Origin: Paludisphaera mucosa | Lineage (GTDB): Bacteria; Planctomycetota; Planctomycetia; Isosphaerales; Isosphaeraceae | Direction of reading: 5' to 3' | Length of the DNA stretch: 64,000 nt | NCBI RefSeq assembly: GCF_029589435.1 | Contig: NZ_JARRAG010000002.1 | Coordinates: 2,976,001-3,040,000, forward strand | Shown here: positions 4,894 through 15,089 of the stretch, piece after piece | How the letters are laid out: every line of letters starts with the position of its first letter | Position numbering within the stretch: the first letter of the stretch is position 1 | Made by a program: the position numbers and the translations under genes | Notes under the pieces: model-generated | Database searches by the model: none | The model's input: the letters and a program-made list of their open reading frames with translations, nothing else | What the model was told of the DNA's origin: nothing

Positions 4894-6255
4894 ATGCCGT
4901 GGCGACGCCTTCACCTGGTCCGGGCCCTCTCGGCCGCGGGACTGGTCAGCAGCTTGATGTTCCTCGGGAGCCCGCACGCGGCCGCGACGTCGAGCGACGA
5001 CGCCGAGCCCACGACGGCCCCGTCCGACGCGTCGACGACTGAGACCGTCGGCCTCCTCAAGGCCGCCCAGGCCGGCGACCTGAAGGTCTCTGCCCGCGGC
5101 CAGGGCCAGGACAAGGTCCGCCTGAACATCCAGAACACCTCCTCCAAGCGGCTCAACGTCATCGTGCCGCCCGGCCTGGTCGCGTCGAGCGGCGTCGGCC
5201 AGGGCGGCCGCGGCGGCGGCGGCTTCCAGAGCATGGGCCTGGGGATGCTCACCAACCGCCCCGGCAGCTTCGGCCAGTTCCAGGGCTCGTCGGCCGCGGG
5301 GCTCCGCTCCATGCCGGTCGCCGGCTCGGAGACCTCGGCGGTGACGATCCCCGCGGGCGAGACCCTCGACGTCTCGATCCCGGCCGTCTGCCTCAATTAC
5401 GGCGTCGCCACCCCCACCTCGCGCGACGCCTTCACCCTGATGGACGTCGACGACTTCACGCAGGACGTCCGCGTCCGCAAGGCGCTCCGGAGCCTGGCGC
5501 TCCTGGGGACCAGCCAGGGCGTGGCCCAGGCCTCGATGTGGCGGATCTGCAACGACGTGCCCTTCGAGGAGATGGCCTCGCGCGACTCCAAGTCCCTGAA
5601 CGACTACGAGATCAGCCTCGCTTCCCGGTTCGTCGACGCCGTCGACGCCGGCGGCTCCGAGGACCTCGTCAACCCGGCCCTGCTGACCGAGGGCCGCGTC
5701 TTCCTGCGGCTCCAGGCCGAGGGCGCGGCGATCCAGGACGACGCATCCCGCCTGGGCGCCAAGCTCGACGGCCTGAGGCTGCTGGGCCTGCCGATCCAGG
5801 TCGTCTCGGGCGAGGAGCCCCCGTCGGCCAACGCCCCCGCCCTGTACGTCAAGGTGGCCCTGAGCGAGTCGCAGGCCGGCGAGGCCGTGGGACGGCTGCA
5901 GGTCGGCTACACCCTGGTCGACGACCAGTGGCGTCCGCTGGGCAAGGCGACCTTCCGCGACCGCTCGTCCGCCGCCGTGCTCGACGCGCAGAGCCTCGTC
6001 CGCCTCGTCGAGCAGGAGCTGGTGGCGACCTTCGTGACCGTCAAGCCGGCCAAGCGGACCGTCAATAGCACGACGCTCCGGGTCGAGAACCGGCTGCCGT
6101 TCACGGTCTCCGGCCTTACCGTCCGCGCCGGGACGTCCGCCGGCTCGCCGATCGTCCCCTTCGACGCCGTCGGCATCGGCCCCGCCCGTTCCGCCCTGCT
6201 GCCGATCCAGGCGGGCCAGGCGCAGATCGCCGGCGTCGAGTTGAACGGCCTCTGA
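4894..6255 (+). CDS. Secreted protein of unknown function
   Basis: A 453-residue protein I do not recognise. The first about 30 residues (MPWRRLHLVRALSAAGLVSS..., ending near 'PHAAA') form a Sec signal peptide, so it is exported. Residues 55-80 ('LKVSARGQGQDKVRLNIQNTSSKRLNV') look like a beta strand-rich domain on how non-classical residues behave at a surface, followed by a Gly-rich stretch at about 92-130. The rest is mixed alpha/beta, with two further strand-rich segments ('LRVENRLPFTVSGLTVRAGT') near the C-terminus that echo the first domain. ATG 4894 is preceded by AAGGG at a good distance; an in-frame GTG at 4723 would place the signal peptide internally. A hairpin terminator follows. 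Confidence 0.75.
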   Translation: MPWRRLHLVRALSAAGLVSSLMFLGSPHAAATSSDDAEPTTAPSDASTTETVGLLKAAQAGDLKVSARGQGQDKVRLNIQNTSSKRLNVIVPPGLVASSGVGQGGRGGGGFQSMGLGMLTNRPGSFGQFQGSSAAGLRSMPVAGSETSAVTIPAGETLDVSIPAVCLNYGVATPTSRDAFTLMDVDDFTQDVRVRKALRSLALLGTSQGVAQASMWRICNDVPFEEMASRDSKSLNDYEISLASRFVDAVDAGGSEDLVNPALLTEGRVFLRLQAEGAAIQDDASRLGAKLDGLRLLGLPIQVVSGEEPPSANAPALYVKVALSESQAGEAVGRLQVGYTLVDDQWRPLGKATFRDRSSAAVLDAQSLVRLVEQELVATFVTVKPAKRTVNSTTLRVENRLPFTVSGLTVRAGTSAGSPIVPFDAVGIGPARSALLPIQAGQAQIAGVELNGL

Positions 6256-7782: not shown

Positions 7783-8061
7783 ATGGGACTGGAACGAAGG
7801 CGGATCTTGTTCTCGGGTCGCGTCCAGGGCGTGGGCTTCCGGGCGACGACCAGCTGGCTGGCCCGGGGGTTCGAGGTCGCCGGATACGTCCGCAACCTGG
7901 CCGACGGTCGCGTCGAGGTGGTCGCCGAAGGGGACGACGCCGAGCTCGACAAGTTCGTCGAGGCCGTCCGCGGCGAACTGGGCGGCTTCATCCGCGACGT
8001 CGACGCCTCGCCGCTGACGACCGACGCCCCCCCGCTCGACGGCTTCGGGGTCCGTTATTGA
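7783..8061 (+). CDS. acyP: Acylphosphatase
   Basis: A 92-residue protein, the usual size of acylphosphatase, which hydrolyses carboxyl-phosphate bonds such as acetyl phosphate or 1,3-bisphosphoglycerate. The signature 'SGRVQGVGFRATT' holds the phosphate-binding Arg20, and the catalytic Asn is Asn38 in 'GYVRNLADGRVEV'. Both key residues are present, so the enzyme should be active. ATG 7783 was chosen because the fold starts within a few residues of it; no strong ribosome site is visible. It stands alone, followed by an ABC permease in the same direction after 87 bases. Confidence 0.92.
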   Translation: MGLERRRILFSGRVQGVGFRATTSWLARGFEVAGYVRNLADGRVEVVAEGDDAELDKFVEAVRGELGGFIRDVDASPLTTDAPPLDGFGVRY

Positions 8062-8148: not shown

Positions 8149-8961
8149 ATGAAATCCATCACGATCGCCCTCGCGACGGCCAAGGAAACGATCCGCCAGC
8201 CGGCCTTCTTCGTGATCGCGTTCTTCGCCGGAGCGCTGCTGGTCGGCACGATCTTCGTGCCGTACTTCACGTTCGGCGAAGACATCAAGATGTACAAGGA
8301 CACCGGCCTGACCACGATCTCGTTCTTCTGCATGCTGCTGGCCCTGCTGACGGCCAGCTCGACGGTCGCGGAGGAGATCGAGGGCAAGACGGCGATCACC
8401 CTGCTGTCGAAGCCGATCAACCGCCGCCAGTTCATCGTGGGCAAGCTGCTGGGCATCCTGATGGGCGTCCTGGTCCTCTACCTGATCCTGGGCGGCCTGT
8501 TCGCGGCCGGCGTCTGGTACAAGATCCCCTACGACCTCCGCGAGTCGGCCGGCACGCTGGAGAGCGGCATGCGGCTGGGCCAGGTCTTGCAGGTGCTGCC
8601 GGGGCTGGTGCTGGGCTTCTTCGAGGTCACCATCCTCACGTCGGTCAGCGTCGCCCTGTCGACCCGGCTGCCGATGCTGGTCAACCTGATCGTCTGCATC
8701 ATGGTCTTCTTCCTGGGCCACCTGAGCCCGGTCCTGGTGACCGCGACCCAGAACGGCCAGCAGCTCATCCACTTCATGGCCCAGCTCTTCGCCTGGGTGC
8801 TGCCGCCGCTCGAGCTGTTCAACGCCGGCCCGTCGATCGCCACCGGCGCCGTCATCCCCTGGGCGGGCTACGTTCTGCCGGCGTTGGGCTGCTGCGTGTT
8901 GTACAGTGGAGCGGCGCTCTTTTTCGCCTTCCTGCTCTTCGAGGACCGCGACCTGGCCTGA
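8149..8961 (+). CDS. ABC-2 type transporter permease
   Basis: A 270-residue membrane protein with six hydrophobic segments (roughly 17-40, 60-77, 104-126, 150-176, 183-202, 240-263) in the pattern of ABC-2 permeases ('TASSTVAEEIEGKTAITLLSKPINRRQFIVGKLLG' region, the conserved stretch after TM2). Such permeases pair with a separate ATPase. No intact ATPase gene adjoins it here: the next gene, 157 bases downstream, has its own membrane domain and a degenerate nucleotide-binding domain. The substrate is unknown. The start is the only plausible ATG before the first membrane segment. Confidence 0.82.
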   Translation: MKSITIALATAKETIRQPAFFVIAFFAGALLVGTIFVPYFTFGEDIKMYKDTGLTTISFFCMLLALLTASSTVAEEIEGKTAITLLSKPINRRQFIVGKLLGILMGVLVLYLILGGLFAAGVWYKIPYDLRESAGTLESGMRLGQVLQVLPGLVLGFFEVTILTSVSVALSTRLPMLVNLIVCIMVFFLGHLSPVLVTATQNGQQLIHFMAQLFAWVLPPLELFNAGPSIATGAVIPWAGYVLPALGCCVLYSGAALFFAFLLFEDRDLA

Positions 8962-9118
8962 TCCCGGCCGGCCCGCGAGGTACGCGGCGGGCTCCGCCTC
9001 CTATTTCAGGCGGCGGCCCCGCCGACGGACGACCGACGTTCCGCAGGAGGTTGGTCCGAGGCGAGACGGAGCGCAGAACCGAATTCCGGCCCTGGACGCC
9101 TGGCGGGGAGCCTCCTGA

Positions 9119-11092
9119 ATGCAAGCCGAAGCGTATCTTCGTGCCAAGAAACTCCTCGCCGCCGGCCGGACCCCGCTGCTCGCCCGGGCGCTCGGCGTCA
9201 TCGAAGCCCTGCTGATCCTCCTCCTGCTGATCCTGGCCGCCCTCTTCGTGGGCCTGATGGCGTCGCGGGGCGAAGTCAGCATCTCCAGCGAGGCGGCGGC
9301 GACCCTGCCGACCTGGACCCTGAGCCGCCAGGTCGGCGACGCGAGCGGCTACAAGGAGTATTCCGACTCCGGCCTCTTCCCCCTGATCGGGTCGAACCTC
9401 TACAGCCCGAACCCCGTGCATCGGCTCGGGGCGCGGCTGCTCAACGGGCTGACCCGCGTCCTGCCGCCGCTCCGGAACAACATCGGGGCGCTCACGACCT
9501 TGCTGGCGCTGGGGCTGGCGCTGATCCTGCTCCTCTCCTTGGTGACCCAGGCGCGGCGGTCGGTGACTGCGACGATCGTGGCCGACCTGGCGACGAATCT
9601 GCGCAACCAGATCCACCGCCAGATGTACCGACTGGGCCAGTCGTCGCTGCCGACGGAGGGCGTAGGGCCGGTCGTGAACATCTGGACCCGCGAGGTCAAC
9701 GACATCCGCGACGCCCTGATCGTCGACTTTCACGTCATCCCCGGGATGATCGTCCTGGGCGTCGGCCTGGCCGCGATCGCACTCTCGACCTCGCCGATCC
9801 TCACGACCTTCCTCGCCTCGCTCGGCCTCCTGGTCTACTTGATCTCGCGGACGATGAATCGCGACGCGCGGACCGCCTACGACGTGGCGCTCCGCGACGC
9901 CTCGGTCCAGCTCTGCCTGCTCCACGAAGACCTGGGCCTGCTGCGGACGGTGCGGACCTACGGCGTCGAGGACTACGACCGCCAGCGGTTCGACGACCAC
10001 CTGGAACGCTACCGGACCGCAGACGTCCGCCGGATGCTCGCCCACCACAACCTGACCACGGCCTCGGCCCTGCTCTACGGCGCGGCGCTGGCGACGGCCC
10101 TGGGCCTGCTCGGCTACAACGTCCTGGTCAAGGACCGGATCTCGATCGCCACGATGCTGATCCTGATCGCCTCGCTCGCGGGGCTGGCCTTCCCGATCCT
10201 GCAATGGGTCAAGATGCGGCAGGCCGTCCGCCACGCCAACCGCTCGGCGGCCGAGATCTTCGAGTTCCTGGCGCGTTCGCCCGAGCTTCACCAGCACGTC
10301 GGGGCCGAGTTCCTGCCGCCGCTCCGCGAGAACATCGTCCTCGACGACGTGACGCTGGAGAGCCGGTCGGGCCGCCTGCTGCTCGACCACGTCTCTCTGG
10401 AGATCCCCGCCGGCGGGCGGACCGTCGTGGTGGGCGTCGACGAGGATTCGAAGCTGGCGCTCGCCTGCCTCATCCCCCGCCTGATCGACCCCCAGGCCGG
10501 CCGCGTGCTGATCGACGGCCGCGACCTGCGCGAGATGACCCTGGAATCGGTCCGGGCCCAGGCCGCCACGGTGCTCCAGGCGGACCTCGTTTTCACCGAC
10601 TCCATCCTGGTGAATATCGGCCTCGGCGACCCGCGCAACACCCTCCAGCGGGTGATCGAGGCGGCGAAGCTGTCGCACGCCCACTACTTCATCCAGGACC
10701 TGCCGCACGGCTACGACACCGTCATCGGCCCGCTGGGACACTACCTCCGGCCCGACGAGCAATTGCGGATCGCCCTGGCCCGCGCGTTCCTGCACGACCC
10801 CTCGATCCTGATCGTCGAGGAGCTGCCGACGGCCGTCGACGACGAGGTCAAGCTGCTGCTCGACGACACGCTCTCGCGCCTGTCCGCCGGGCGGACGGTC
10901 CTCGTCATCCCCCACCGGCTGTCGACGATCCGCTCGGCCGACACCGTCATCCTGCTGAACAACGGCCGGCTCGAAGGCGTCGCCACCCCCTCGAAGCTCC
11001 AGGCCGAGAGCAAGCTCTTCCGCCACATCCTCTACACCGAGTTCAACGAGTACGCCACCGGCGACATCGAGGCGGGCCAGGTCGCCGGCTGA
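9119..11092 (+). CDS. ABC half-transporter with a degenerate ATPase domain
   Basis: A 657-residue fusion: membrane domain (about 20-365, with a long extracytoplasmic stretch at 50-115) then an ABC nucleotide-binding domain (about 405-645) of the exporter type. The catalytic motifs are strongly altered. Walker A reads G439-V-D-E-D-S-K445-L where GxxGxGK(S/T) is expected; the signature reads L543-R-P-D-E instead of LSGGQ; the Walker B Asp is Glu567. The Q-loop Gln487, catalytic-position Glu568 and H-loop His599 remain. ATP hydrolysis is therefore doubtful. The reading frame is intact and surrounding fold residues are well kept, so this looks like a retained pseudo-ATPase and not a decaying gene. 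It may act as a partner or a sensor; that is inference. Confidence 0.85.
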   Translation: MQAEAYLRAKKLLAAGRTPLLARALGVIEALLILLLLILAALFVGLMASRGEVSISSEAAATLPTWTLSRQVGDASGYKEYSDSGLFPLIGSNLYSPNPVHRLGARLLNGLTRVLPPLRNNIGALTTLLALGLALILLLSLVTQARRSVTATIVADLATNLRNQIHRQMYRLGQSSLPTEGVGPVVNIWTREVNDIRDALIVDFHVIPGMIVLGVGLAAIALSTSPILTTFLASLGLLVYLISRTMNRDARTAYDVALRDASVQLCLLHEDLGLLRTVRTYGVEDYDRQRFDDHLERYRTADVRRMLAHHNLTTASALLYGAALATALGLLGYNVLVKDRISIATMLILIASLAGLAFPILQWVKMRQAVRHANRSAAEIFEFLARSPELHQHVGAEFLPPLRENIVLDDVTLESRSGRLLLDHVSLEIPAGGRTVVVGVDEDSKLALACLIPRLIDPQAGRVLIDGRDLREMTLESVRAQAATVLQADLVFTDSILVNIGLGDPRNTLQRVIEAAKLSHAHYFIQDLPHGYDTVIGPLGHYLRPDEQLRIALARAFLHDPSILIVEELPTAVDDEVKLLLDDTLSRLSAGRTVLVIPHRLSTIRSADTVILLNNGRLEGVATPSKLQAESKLFRHILYTEFNEYATGDIEAGQVAG

Positions 11093-11968: not shown

Positions 11969-13657
11969 TCACTTCGTCGTCGTGACGCTCCAGGCGCGGA
12001 CCGACTTCGAGCCGTTGGAGCTGGCCCACTTGCTCATCGCCCGCAGCAGCTGGCCGACGTCGGCCTTCGCCAACTTGGTGGTCGAGGCGGCCTGGTCGAC
12101 CGACGTGGTCGTCAGGGCGTCGACCGCCTTGCCGTTGAGGTACACCGGCACTTCGAGCGTCGTCGGCGTGGGCTCGGCCTCGTCGTCGACCGGAGTCGTC
12201 GGGGTCGTCGGCGTGGTCGTCGGGGCGGCGGGGGGCGGCGTCGAGACGACCGGCGTCGTGACCGGGGGCGTCGGCGTGGAAGGGGCCTGCGCCGGCGGCG
12301 TGTAGTTCACGGGGATCGTCGGCGGCGTGAGCACCTGCTGGGCCGGCGGAGTGACGACCACGGGCGGCGTCACGACCACGGGCGGCGTCGGGGTTGCGGG
12401 CGTCGTCGGGGTGGTCGGGACCGTCACGACGGGGGTGCCGGGGACGAGGGCGGCCGAGCCGAGGACGTTGAGCCGGCCGATGTCGATGCCCGTGACGTCG
12501 TCGTGGATCGTCTTCGCGCCCTTCTCGAGCCAGCTCGTGAGCTGGTCGACGGTGGGCAGCGAGCCGAACCGCGACTTGTAGATCGACTGGAGCAGGACGA
12601 TCGATCCCGACACCAGGGGGGCGGCGAAGCTCGTGCCGTCGACGTTCGAGTAGTTCGAGCCGTCGATCAGGGCGGCGAGGCCCGAGCCGGGGGCGGCCAG
12701 GTCGGTGGCGGTGGCCCCGCCCAGGGCCGAGCCCAACCGCTGGGCGTTGGACAGGAGCTTGTCGGAGGAGTCGCTGGCCGTCACGCTGATGACGCCGTCG
12801 AGCACCGCCGTGAACCCTTCGCCCTGCTGGCCGGTGAAGCTGTTGCCGGTGGCCGCGACGACGGGGATGTTCAACGCCTTGAGCTGGCCCACGAGCTGCG
12901 TCATCCGCTGGCCCACGCCGCCGTCGGCGGCGAACCAGTTGCGGGCGTAGTTCTTGCCGTTGGACAGCGAGATGTTGACCACGCTGATGTTGTACTTGGA
13001 GTGGTTGTCGACGACCCACTGGAGGGCGTCGGCGATGTTGCTGGTGTCGGCGGTGTTGCTGGCGTTGGTGACCTTCAGCGCCACGATGTCGACCCCGGGC
13101 GCGACGCCCAGGTGGTTCGCGTCGCCGCCGGCGATCAGGCCGGCCACGGCCGTGCCGTGCTGCGAGGACGAGGCGATCGGGTCGGAGTCGTGGTCGCCGA
13201 AGTCGTAGCCGGCGACGACCCGGGCGTTGGGGCCGAAGCCGCCGCCGAGGCCGCCGTTGTTGTAGTTCACGCCCGTGTCGATCACGGCCACGGTCAGCCC
13301 CGAGCCGTCGACGTTGTACGCCTGGCGTGCCTGGGCGGAGCCGATGATCGGGTCGAAGGCGGTGGTGGCGCCGGACGCGACGGAGCCGGCGGGCGACTCG
13401 ACCGAGTCGGTCGTCGCGGTCCGCACGATCCTCAGGTTCTGGACGCCGGCCGCCGCATGGACGCGGGGCTGGTGGGTCGTGTGCACCGCCGCGGAACGCA
13501 TCCGCTGCACGGCCTCGGCTCGCCTGACGGCGGCCTGCTCGGAGAGGGCCCCTCCGAGCCCCGTCGAGAGCAGTCGGCGGACGTCGAGCTCCTCGAGCGC
13601 CGGGCGCTGCTTGCGTCGAGAATCTCGGCTGCGATGGCCAGTCAGGGTCCATGCCAT
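11969..13657 (-). CDS. S8 family serine protease (subtilase), exported
   Basis: A 562-residue protease. The N-terminus carries 'LEELDVRRLL' at 21-30, close to the LEPR-XLL motif common on exported planctomycetal proteins. The peptidase domain spans about 95-400 with the full triad: Asp127 (VAVIDTG), His167 (SSQHGTAVAG), oxyanion Asn272 (AATGNS) and Ser343 (DGTSFAAP). Residues 405-505 are a Pro/Thr/Val-rich linker containing an 18-base tandem duplication at 12351-12386, followed by a 60-residue C-terminal module of unknown role. ATG 13657 is preferred (GGGGAG site); an in-frame ATG at 13690 is the alternative. It should act outside the cytoplasm. Confidence 0.9.
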   Translation of the reverse strand: MAWTLTGHRSRDSRRKQRPALEELDVRRLLSTGLGGALSEQAAVRRAEAVQRMRSAAVHTTHQPRVHAAAGVQNLRIVRTATTDSVESPAGSVASGATTAFDPIIGSAQARQAYNVDGSGLTVAVIDTGVNYNNGGLGGGFGPNARVVAGYDFGDHDSDPIASSSQHGTAVAGLIAGGDANHLGVAPGVDIVALKVTNASNTADTSNIADALQWVVDNHSKYNISVVNISLSNGKNYARNWFAADGGVGQRMTQLVGQLKALNIPVVAATGNSFTGQQGEGFTAVLDGVISVTASDSSDKLLSNAQRLGSALGGATATDLAAPGSGLAALIDGSNYSNVDGTSFAAPLVSGSIVLLQSIYKSRFGSLPTVDQLTSWLEKGAKTIHDDVTGIDIGRLNVLGSAALVPGTPVVTVPTTPTTPATPTPPVVVTPPVVVTPPAQQVLTPPTIPVNYTPPAQAPSTPTPPVTTPVVSTPPPAAPTTTPTTPTTPVDDEAEPTPTTLEVPVYLNGKAVDALTTTSVDQAASTTKLAKADVGQLLRAMSKWASSNGSKSVRAWSVTTTK

Positions 13658-14330
13658 GGAACGAATCTCCCCAGACGGCCGCCATGCCATTGGCTCAGGC
13701 CGCCCCGCGATTCGGATGTGAACGCCCCCCATCCATGGCGGGCGCCGATCGCCCCCCCGGACGGATCCGGCGAGGCCCTCGGGCCCGGGGGACCCCGGCC
13801 GGGAGGGTTCCCGGACGCAGTCCCGCAGAGCGCGTGACAAGGTTGTTCGGCACGAGAAGGGGCTCGAGGGCGAGGGAGGGGCCGGGCCGAGCCGCGAGGT
13901 CCGGAGACCCCGCGACGACGACCGCTCCTCCTCCGCCACGGGCCCTTCAGCCCGGGCGCGGAGAATCGACGGCGGTCCGGTCGGTCGGCCGGGGGTCTGG
14001 GGACACCCTCGGCGCTCGGCCGGGACCATCGATTCGGCTTCGTCCTCCTGAGCGGCGGCCGGGCGCGTCCAGTACGCCCGACCCTTCCGAACCGTCCCTT
14101 CCGGGGCGGCCCGCCGACGCACGTCCTGCGGCGCCGGAGCGACGGGCGCGTCCGATCGGCCTCGACGCCGACCGCCACCGCCCGCCTCCTCCCGACCCGG
14201 CCCCATCCGCCTTGCGTCCCCTCTTGGGACGCACTAGATTGAGGTCGCCTCGGGAAGGTCCCGTTGGAGCTAGGGTCTCCTCCGGTGAGCCTTGTATCGG
14301 AATCGAGGCGAACCGAGGTCCGCAGGAAAA
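13658..14330. other. Intergenic region between the subtilase and kdsB genes
   Basis: A 673-base divergent spacer. Open frames here have no recognisable protein text. It should hold the subtilase promoter on the minus strand (not located) and the kdsB promoter near its right end. Nothing else is supported. Confidence 0.5.
14212..14240 (+). promoter_or_regulatory. Predicted kdsB promoter
   Basis: TTGCGT at 14212-14217, a 17-base spacer and TAGATT at 14235-14240. The element ends 90 bases before the kdsB start. Good spacing supports it; it has not been tested. Confidence 0.5.
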
Positions 14331-15089
14331 ATGGAAAATGTCGCGGTGATCCCGGCGCGGTTCGCTTCCACCCGACTGCCCGGCAAACCCCTCCTTTCCG
14401 ACACCGGGAAGACGCTGATCCAGCACGTCGTCGAGGCCGCGCGACGCGCGCGATCGCTGCAACGCGTCATCGTGGCCACCGACGACGAGCGGATCGCCGA
14501 CGCCGTGCGGGCCTTCGGCGGCGAAGTCGCCATGACCCGCGCCGACCACGCGACGGGCACCGACCGCGTGGCCGAAGTCGCCGCGACGATCCCGGGCGCC
14601 GGAATCATCGTCAACGTCCAGGGCGACGAGCCCGAGATCGACGGATCATCGATCGATCGCTTGATCACGCTTTTGGAGGACGACCCCGAGGCCCCGATGG
14701 CGACCCTCGCCACGCCGATCCGCGACGAGGCCGTCTACCGCGACCCCTCGTGCGTGAAGGTCGTCGCCTCGTCCCGCGGCCGCGCCCTCTACTTCTCGCG
14801 CAGCCCCATCCCCTGCCATCGCGACGGCTCGCCCGACTTCGCCGACCCGAAGTCCCCCGCCGCCTTCCTCCACCTGGGCCTGTACGCCTACCGCCGCGAC
14901 TTCCTGCTGAAGGTCGGCGCACTGCCCCGCTCGCCGCTGGAAGCCGCCGAGAAGCTCGAACAGCTCCGCGTCCTCGAAGCCGGCCTCCCCATCGCGCTGG
15001 GCTTCGTCGACGAGCCCAGCATCGGCGTCGACACCCCCGAGGACTACCGCCGCTTCGTCGAACGCTGGCGCGCGGCCAACCCGGGGTGA
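14331..15089 (+). CDS. kdsB: 3-deoxy-manno-octulosonate cytidylyltransferase (CMP-Kdo synthetase)
   Basis: A 252-residue enzyme matching KdsB: 'VAVIPARFASTRLPGKPL' at residues 4-21 is the nucleotide-binding opening with the conserved Arg and Lys, 'TDDERI' follows, and 'NVQGDEPEI' carries the metal-binding Asp. 'YFSRSPIP' and 'HLGLYAYRRDFL' complete the family pattern. It activates Kdo with CTP for attachment to lipid A, so its presence supports an LPS-containing outer membrane. ATG 14331 follows AGGAAAA at close spacing. The gene is monocistronic here; the converging ParD/ParE remnant lies directly downstream. Confidence 0.93.
   Translation: MENVAVIPARFASTRLPGKPLLSDTGKTLIQHVVEAARRARSLQRVIVATDDERIADAVRAFGGEVAMTRADHATGTDRVAEVAATIPGAGIIVNVQGDEPEIDGSSIDRLITLLEDDPEAPMATLATPIRDEAVYRDPSCVKVVASSRGRALYFSRSPIPCHRDGSPDFADPKSPAAFLHLGLYAYRRDFLLKVGALPRSPLEAAEKLEQLRVLEAGLPIALGFVDEPSIGVDTPEDYRRFVERWRAANPG

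Follow-up and report, generated by a model that had tools for sequence, protein, structure and literature searches.

A conserved ABC exporter-fold family of the Planctomycetia that very probably does not hydrolyse ATP

In a 64,000-nucleotide stretch of the Paludisphaera mucosa genome (the window), we describe a gene for an ABC exporter-fold protein in which all three diagnostic ATPase motifs are degenerate. Judged from its sequences, the protein belongs to a single-origin family of ABCB/MsbA-like membrane proteins found in the Planctomycetia, with one copy per genome where found. This conserved family is very probably non-hydrolysing, its nucleotide-binding domain (NBD) is probably the working module, and the ABC-2-type permease encoded directly upstream is a tentative candidate for its partner. 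Taken as a whole, the best explanation, which we hold with middling confidence, is a non-hydrolysing exporter-fold protein in which the rebuilt NBD would have a binding or regulatory role, with the upstream permease as its most probable target.

An exporter-fold family spread across the class, in which no member examined has a canonical ATP site, amounts to a natural experiment on what NBDs and coupling loops do without ATP. Its members carry Pfam ABC transporter domains and are for that reason easily mistaken for ATP-driven transporters. Planctomycete envelopes are unusual, and a conserved membrane protein there would be tractable where strains can be manipulated genetically. Searches of the open literature for planctomycete or fully degenerate ABC exporters, which leave most subscription papers outside their scope, yielded no description of such a family, and the words 'ABC' and 'transporter' do not occur in the available main text of a study of essentiality in Planctopirus limnophila (PMC10632474).

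The gene and its product

The open reading frame of the pseudo-exporter begins with an ATG and continues through 657 codons to a stop, with zero internal stops, which bears out the long intact frame of the original prediction. The GC content at its first, second and third codon positions is 0.70, 0.42 and 0.95, and this profile identifies the plus-strand frame as the coding one. An antisense frame at 8852-11026 was considered as a gene in its own right and ruled out by the third-position GC of 0.95 and by the conservation of the plus-strand frame; it looks like a shadow of the latter. The features of the gene and of its immediate upstream neighbours are collected in Table 1.

Table 1. Features of the pseudo-exporter locus, with positions counted from the first letter of the window
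Feature	Position	Strand	Basis
Acylphosphatase gene, upstream of the permease	7783..8061	+	PF00708; conserved context, 37/77 loci
ABC-2-type permease gene, 270 aa, directly upstream; candidate partner	8149..8961	+	PF12679 above cut-off; adjacency in 65/77 loci
Pseudo-ABC half-exporter gene, 657 aa	9119..11092	+	ORF, Pfam, alignment, orthologues
Membrane domain, residues 18-395 (long helices; coupling loops by position)	9170..10303	+	PF00664 match, residues 126-356; model helices
Weakly conserved long insert that follows the first helix, residues 50-118; presumably extracytoplasmic	9266..9472	+	Model; column conservation 0.54
Pseudo nucleotide-binding domain (pseudo-NBD), residues 405-640	10331..11038	+	PF00005 match, residues 422-568; conservation
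Degenerate acidic Walker A, G439-V-D-E-D-S-K-L446	10433..10456	+	Alignment
Q-loop Gln487, kept in the Paludisphaera protein	10577..10579	+	Alignment
Degenerate signature, L543-R-P-D-E-Q-L-R550	10745..10768	+	Alignment
Walker B, I563-L-I-V-E567-E568, Asp replaced by Glu; E568 in 83/83 loci	10805..10822	+	Alignment
H-loop His599, kept in the Paludisphaera protein	10913..10915	+	Alignment

Pfam assigns the 657-aa protein to ABC_membrane (PF00664; 49.1 bits against a cut-off of 28) and to ABC_tran (PF00005; 35.6 bits against a cut-off of 25). The fusion of a transmembrane domain (TMD) to an ABC_tran domain, which defines the fold family of the ABC type IV exporters, is found both in the Pfam matches and in the structure model. 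Its score stays under the cut-off for each of the 25 NCBIfam families shown, and the equivalog cut-offs for MsbA (216.2 against 602 bits) and HepA (232.6 against 725 bits) are not reached.

We modelled the pseudo-exporter as a monomer with AlphaFold2, using alignment A1 (57 sequences). The model has a mean pLDDT of 86.6 and a pTM of 0.70, places the helices and the NBD in exporter order with the long membrane helices all modelled, and shows a helix at residues 442-451 that comes soon after a strand at 434-439. Its best solved matches in Foldseek include ABCB10, MsRv1273c/72c, TmrAB, TM287/288 and MsbA, and a protein of this fold would be expected to dimerise.

Loss of the ATPase motifs across the family

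We compared motif states in two overlapping sets of loci. The first holds 83 distinct family loci, from which L026 (the same gene as L057) and the canonical rows L099 and L109-L111 were dropped; the second is a collection of 80 loci, made up of 66 family members (65 from planctomycete taxa and one labelled 'Bacterium') and 14 other exporters. Alignment A1 contains 57 of 84 non-canonical loci, picked for diversity, and the diverged copies of genus g6, described below, are in neither A1 nor the 83-locus set.

The motif changes named in the original prediction, with GVDEDSKL for Walker A (residues 439-446), LRPDE for the signature (543-547) and Glu567 in place of the Walker B Asp, are exact in the alignment, and its suggested search among orthologues for the altered motifs gives a uniform answer. 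The Walker A pattern GxxGxGK[S/T] occurs in 0/83 and 0/66 family loci, against 14/14 of the other exporters in the same alignment. At the signature position LSGG[QE] is likewise missing from all 83 and all 66 family loci and present in nine of the 14 canonical exporters, the exact pattern being a non-strict test that the other five canonical proteins fail too; in L167 the pattern was found once, outside the signature position. The Walker B Asp position is occupied by Glu in 78 of the 83 loci, by Ala in two, by Gln in two and by Asp in one (L076), and Asp is found there in 1/66 loci of the second set (L173) against 14/14 canonical exporters. No orthologue with canonical motifs was found among these loci, the nearest being L076 and L173, which have lost Walker A and signature, retain the Walker B Asp and could be intermediates or reversions. 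The canonical exporter of the same genomes has intact Walker A and signature patterns in 19/19 other genomes checked and in the own-genome copy L109, and set against 0/83 in the family this makes the motif loss, as far as these alignments reach, more than chance.

Glycine is absent from P-loop position 442 in every member of both sets; position 441 is Asp in 47 and Glu in four of the 57 A1 rows; and at least one acidic residue stands between P-loop positions 440 and 446 in 83/83 and 66/66 family loci, as against 1/14 canonical exporters. Over 13 aligned pocket positions, the 57 members carry a mean of 5.5 acidic residues, and the 14 canonical exporters 2.1.

Remnants of an ATP site persist beside these changes. 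The catalytic Glu (E568) is retained in 83/83 and 66/66 loci, the Walker A Lys (K445) in 49/83, the first P-loop Gly (439) in 51/83 and the second signature Gly (546) in 36/83, and an aromatic residue occupies the likely A-loop position 413 in 18/83 and 32/66 loci (Phe in the 14 canonical rows). Since the K445 position and E568 are still present, the ATP site has not been wiped out entirely, and these remnants, together with the Asp of L076 and L173, mean that weak nucleotide binding is possible. The predicted retention of the Q-loop and H-loop stands for the Paludisphaera gene (Q487 and H599) and fails as a family trait, Gln being present in 36/57 and His in 37/57 rows.

Distribution and single origin

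A profile search with A1 matched 188 of 297 Planctomycetia genomes at E <= 1e-150, with one place each among the rows listed; absence here means a score below that threshold, so that diverged copies may be missed. Inside the match, 145 of the 150 listed matches are stop-free, and one or two stops occur in each of the other five (G174, G290, G146, G116 and G119). In G001, one TAG lies in a match that reaches residue 656 and is absent from the slightly shorter match of the A1 profile search. Families f5, f7 and f11, presumably Pirellulales, have no genome among the 188 matching ones, and presence in family f3 (Gemmataceae) is patchy.

Within the Isosphaeraceae, the family of Paludisphaera, the gene has a match at E <= 1e-62 in 40 of 45 genomes, mostly at full length and with 46-84% identity, the exceptions being G033 (a match split over two contigs), G012 (partial) and G024 (35% identity). 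The five genomes without a match are four of genus g6 and G029. A total absence from genus g6 proved wrong, as each of its four genomes carries a more strongly diverged copy immediately downstream of the permease. These copies (L230, L232, L233 and L234) are far diverged at 252-279 bits and keep both the EE pair and their location downstream of the permease; L230, the copy compared with Pfam, scores under the ABC_tran cut-off.

In a scan of 294 genomes from the phylum, 17 of the 21 Planctomycetia genomes score 625.6-844.1 bits, and the remaining four of the class (G040, G045, G049 and G054) and the 273 genomes of other classes reach at most 470.5 bits. Motifs were inspected in the best 30 places, of which 17 are degenerate and 13 canonical. 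No family member was detected among the 273 genomes of other classes, where the best match, at 470.5 bits, has canonical motifs.

Trees were built from 29-31 family members and 26 canonical exporters, and split supports were read from the unrooted trees. The split between pseudo-exporters and canonical exporters has a support of 100 with 520 columns, of 100 with the motif columns masked (463 columns) and of 100 with the NBD, and a moderate support of 79 from the TMD alone. On these trees the pseudo-exporter family is monophyletic, and the motif losses are best explained by one ancestor, not by repeated decay.

Selection on the degenerate domain

With near-identical pairs set aside, the 14 closest give an omega between 0.044 and 0.237, the mark of purifying selection, and it is lower for the NBD than for the TMD in 11 pairs and higher in three. 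As a control we used the canonical exporter orthologous to G000:C2:4754189, for which 20 stretches were fetched and 19 used, L288 (genus g6) being dropped. Over the same 20 genomes, mean pairwise identity is 0.521 for the TMD and 0.664 for the NBD of the pseudo family, against 0.746 and 0.746 in the canonical family, whose domain borders, placed by register from Walker A, are approximate; the ratio of NBD to TMD divergence is 0.70 in the former and 1.00 in the latter. Block by block, conservation of the pseudo family in these genomes is highest at 0.78 in the first coupling region and 0.76 in the NBD, and lowest at 0.55 in the first helix and 0.54 in the insert that follows it. The new P-loop is itself conserved, with D441 in 18, E442 in 16, D443 in 19 and K445 in 17 of the 20 genomes.

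With the pseudo-NBD less diverged than the TMD, the supposedly dead domain is the part that selection holds most. Purifying selection acts on the pseudo-NBD and on the coupling regions alike. Such a conserved 'dead' engine suggests that it was rebuilt for another job. The earlier reading of the gene as a retained pseudo-ATPase is well supported at the level of sequence, by losses that are family-wide, a single origin and purifying selection.

An orphan permease upstream

Of 77 loci, the window's among them, 65 have a permease gene as the immediate upstream neighbour on the same strand, and the other 12 show no upstream permease. The gap to the pseudo-exporter is 157 nt in the window and 23-609 nt in the 64 other loci, in a survey that relied on mechanical ORFs of at least 90 aa and in which the choice of start codon affects the gaps. 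The permease is present in 287 of 297 Planctomycetia genomes, at one place in nearly all of them; it occurs in many genomes without the pseudo-exporter, and in G090 the two genes are megabases apart. We regard the adjacency as a lead, not as proof of a complex; it is the single lead towards the role suggested in the original prediction, a possible regulatory partner of another transporter or a sensor.

By motif scan, a canonical ABC ATPase is encoded in the fetched stretch at 4 of 76 family loci. An ABC ATPase of the permease's own was looked for as well: the scan found none in the 13 permease stretches L270-L282 (11 from outside the class and two from inside), and one among the ten stretches L226-L235, where the ATPase in L233 belongs to a canonical exporter, unrelated and about 10 kb distant. 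By these scans the permease is an orphan ABC-2 permease, near-universal in the Planctomycetia, with a canonical ABC ATPase rarely encoded nearby.

The C-terminal tail of the permease has the consensus LLFEDRDLA, with F264, R267, D268 and A270 invariant in 34 aligned rows. In L226, L227, L228, L229 and L282, all from genomes without the pseudo-exporter at E 1e-150, the permease has an N-terminal extension of about 210-260 residues, which looks like transmembrane segments plus an extracytoplasmic part.

Proposed mechanism and alternatives

According to the available text of PMC7756269, each site in an ABC dimer combines Walker A and Walker B from one chain with the signature from its partner. 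With all three motifs degenerate in one chain, a homodimer of the pseudo-exporter would lack a canonical ATP site and in a heterodimer both composite sites would be damaged, and with both dimer forms damaged we infer that no ATP hydrolysis cycle would take place. We propose that the family gave up that cycle, and that the pseudo-exporter may have become a homodimeric membrane scaffold or regulator. Its pseudo-NBD and coupling loops would then provide a working surface for binding or regulation, and the protein may act on the ABC-2-type permease encoded directly upstream. In a more specific version, an electrostatic switch would replace the ATP switch, with a cation or a basic partner opening and closing the NBD dimer and so gating the neighbouring permease. 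A divalent cation or basic partner in place of ATP is suggested by the acidic pocket, by the P-loop acids found in all members examined and by the invariant Glu at the Walker B site, and we consider this version very unlikely. If true, it would be an ABC machine run without nucleotide.

Four other explanations compete with a binding or regulatory module. Decay of a pseudogene, or an assembly error, might be read from the motif losses taken alone, from the stops inside the match in five of the 150 listed genomes and from the TAG in G001; it is scarcely credible beside the 145 stop-free matches, an omega of 0.04-0.24 and losses shared by all members examined, and a recent decay or assembly error is ruled out by the intact frames, the purifying selection and the family-wide pattern. 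A heterodimer, in which the degenerate half would pair with a canonical half-exporter of the cell as in TmrAB or TM287/288, is a more serious candidate, as Foldseek ranks such halves among the best matches and the genome encodes other ABC exporters, for example G000:C2:4754189 with full motifs. It is nonetheless unlikely, for the known heterodimers treated in the available part of PMC7756269 keep one composite site canonical whereas here both would be hit, and the scan of the fetched stretches, which covers linked genes alone, found a canonical ABC ATPase at so few loci.

An ATP-independent transporter, lipid scramblase or channel would retain the membrane path of an exporter and lose the use of ATP, and both the complete set of modelled long membrane helices and the kdsB-like gene of the lipopolysaccharide pathway, about 3 kb downstream in Isosphaeraceae, are consistent with it. 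Conservation runs opposite to what a selected transport path would lead one to expect, however, being lowest in the first helix and the insert and highest in the pseudo-NBD and the first coupling region, and we judge such an activity improbable. A protein that binds nucleotide, and perhaps hydrolyses it slowly, would use K445, E568, Q487 and H599 in a non-canonical pocket. The retention of these residues and of the aromatic at position 413 speaks for it, as does the degenerate site of Pdr5, which has similar changes and still matters (PMC7756269, available text). The Lys, Gln and His are missing from many members, however, and a P-loop that lacks Gly442 throughout and carries acids in every member would be unfavourable for phosphates, which leaves this alternative, too, with a low probability.

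Comparison with known systems

The nearest relatives by fold are the type IV exporters (ABCB, MsbA and ABCB10-like), which have the same membrane domain and NBD fold and the same pair of Pfam domains; the family differs from them in having no Walker A or LSGGQ in its 83 and 66 loci and a Walker B Asp in L076 and L173 only. The common view is that an ABC exporter requires at least one functional ATP site. TmrAB, TM287/288, TAP, Pdr5 and ABCG5/G8, exporters in which one site is degenerate, resemble the pseudo-exporter in that degenerate motifs occur in working proteins, but they keep one canonical composite site, whereas a single chain of the pseudo-exporter carries all the losses. The available text of PMC7756269 describes the degenerate site of Pdr5 as having the signature LNVEQ and a lost Walker A Lys and as mattering for function nevertheless, and LNVEQ recalls the LRPDEQ of the pseudo-exporter.

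SUR/KATP and ABCB8 offer an analogy, and an analogy only, for an ABC fold that serves as a regulatory subunit of another membrane protein. In SUR/KATP the ABC fold is used in just this way, and the database name of ABCB8 is 'mitochondrial potassium channel ATP-binding subunit'. SUR still binds nucleotides, and the permease is as yet a candidate partner of the pseudo-exporter.

The wider neighbourhood

Beyond the permease and the pseudo-exporter, the outer neighbours vary from family to family. A NAD kinase gene occurs in f3, a gene of the inositol-phosphatase family in f3 and f8 and an HD-domain gene in f2, and in the Isosphaeraceae the outer neighbours are an SDR gene, a subtilase gene and a kdsB-like gene; they point to no single pathway. 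The 90-aa cut-off of the survey leads to an undercount of short genes, the acylphosphatase among them. Upstream of the acylphosphatase, a 453-aa frame with no Pfam match (4894-6252 of the window) is conserved in 26 of 77 loci.

Downstream in the window, the kdsB-like cytidylyltransferase gene (14292-15089) lies about 3 kb from the pseudo-exporter and is conserved mainly in Isosphaeraceae. Its placement, we presume, recalls the msbA-kdsB neighbourhood of E. coli; because it is conserved mainly in that family and genes on the opposite strand lie between, we do not count it as main evidence for lipid A export. On the minus strand at 11969-14206, a subtilase (PF00082) holds in its N-terminal part the sequence LEELDVRRLLS, which we take to resemble the LEPRxLLS-type motif of planctomycete exported proteins.
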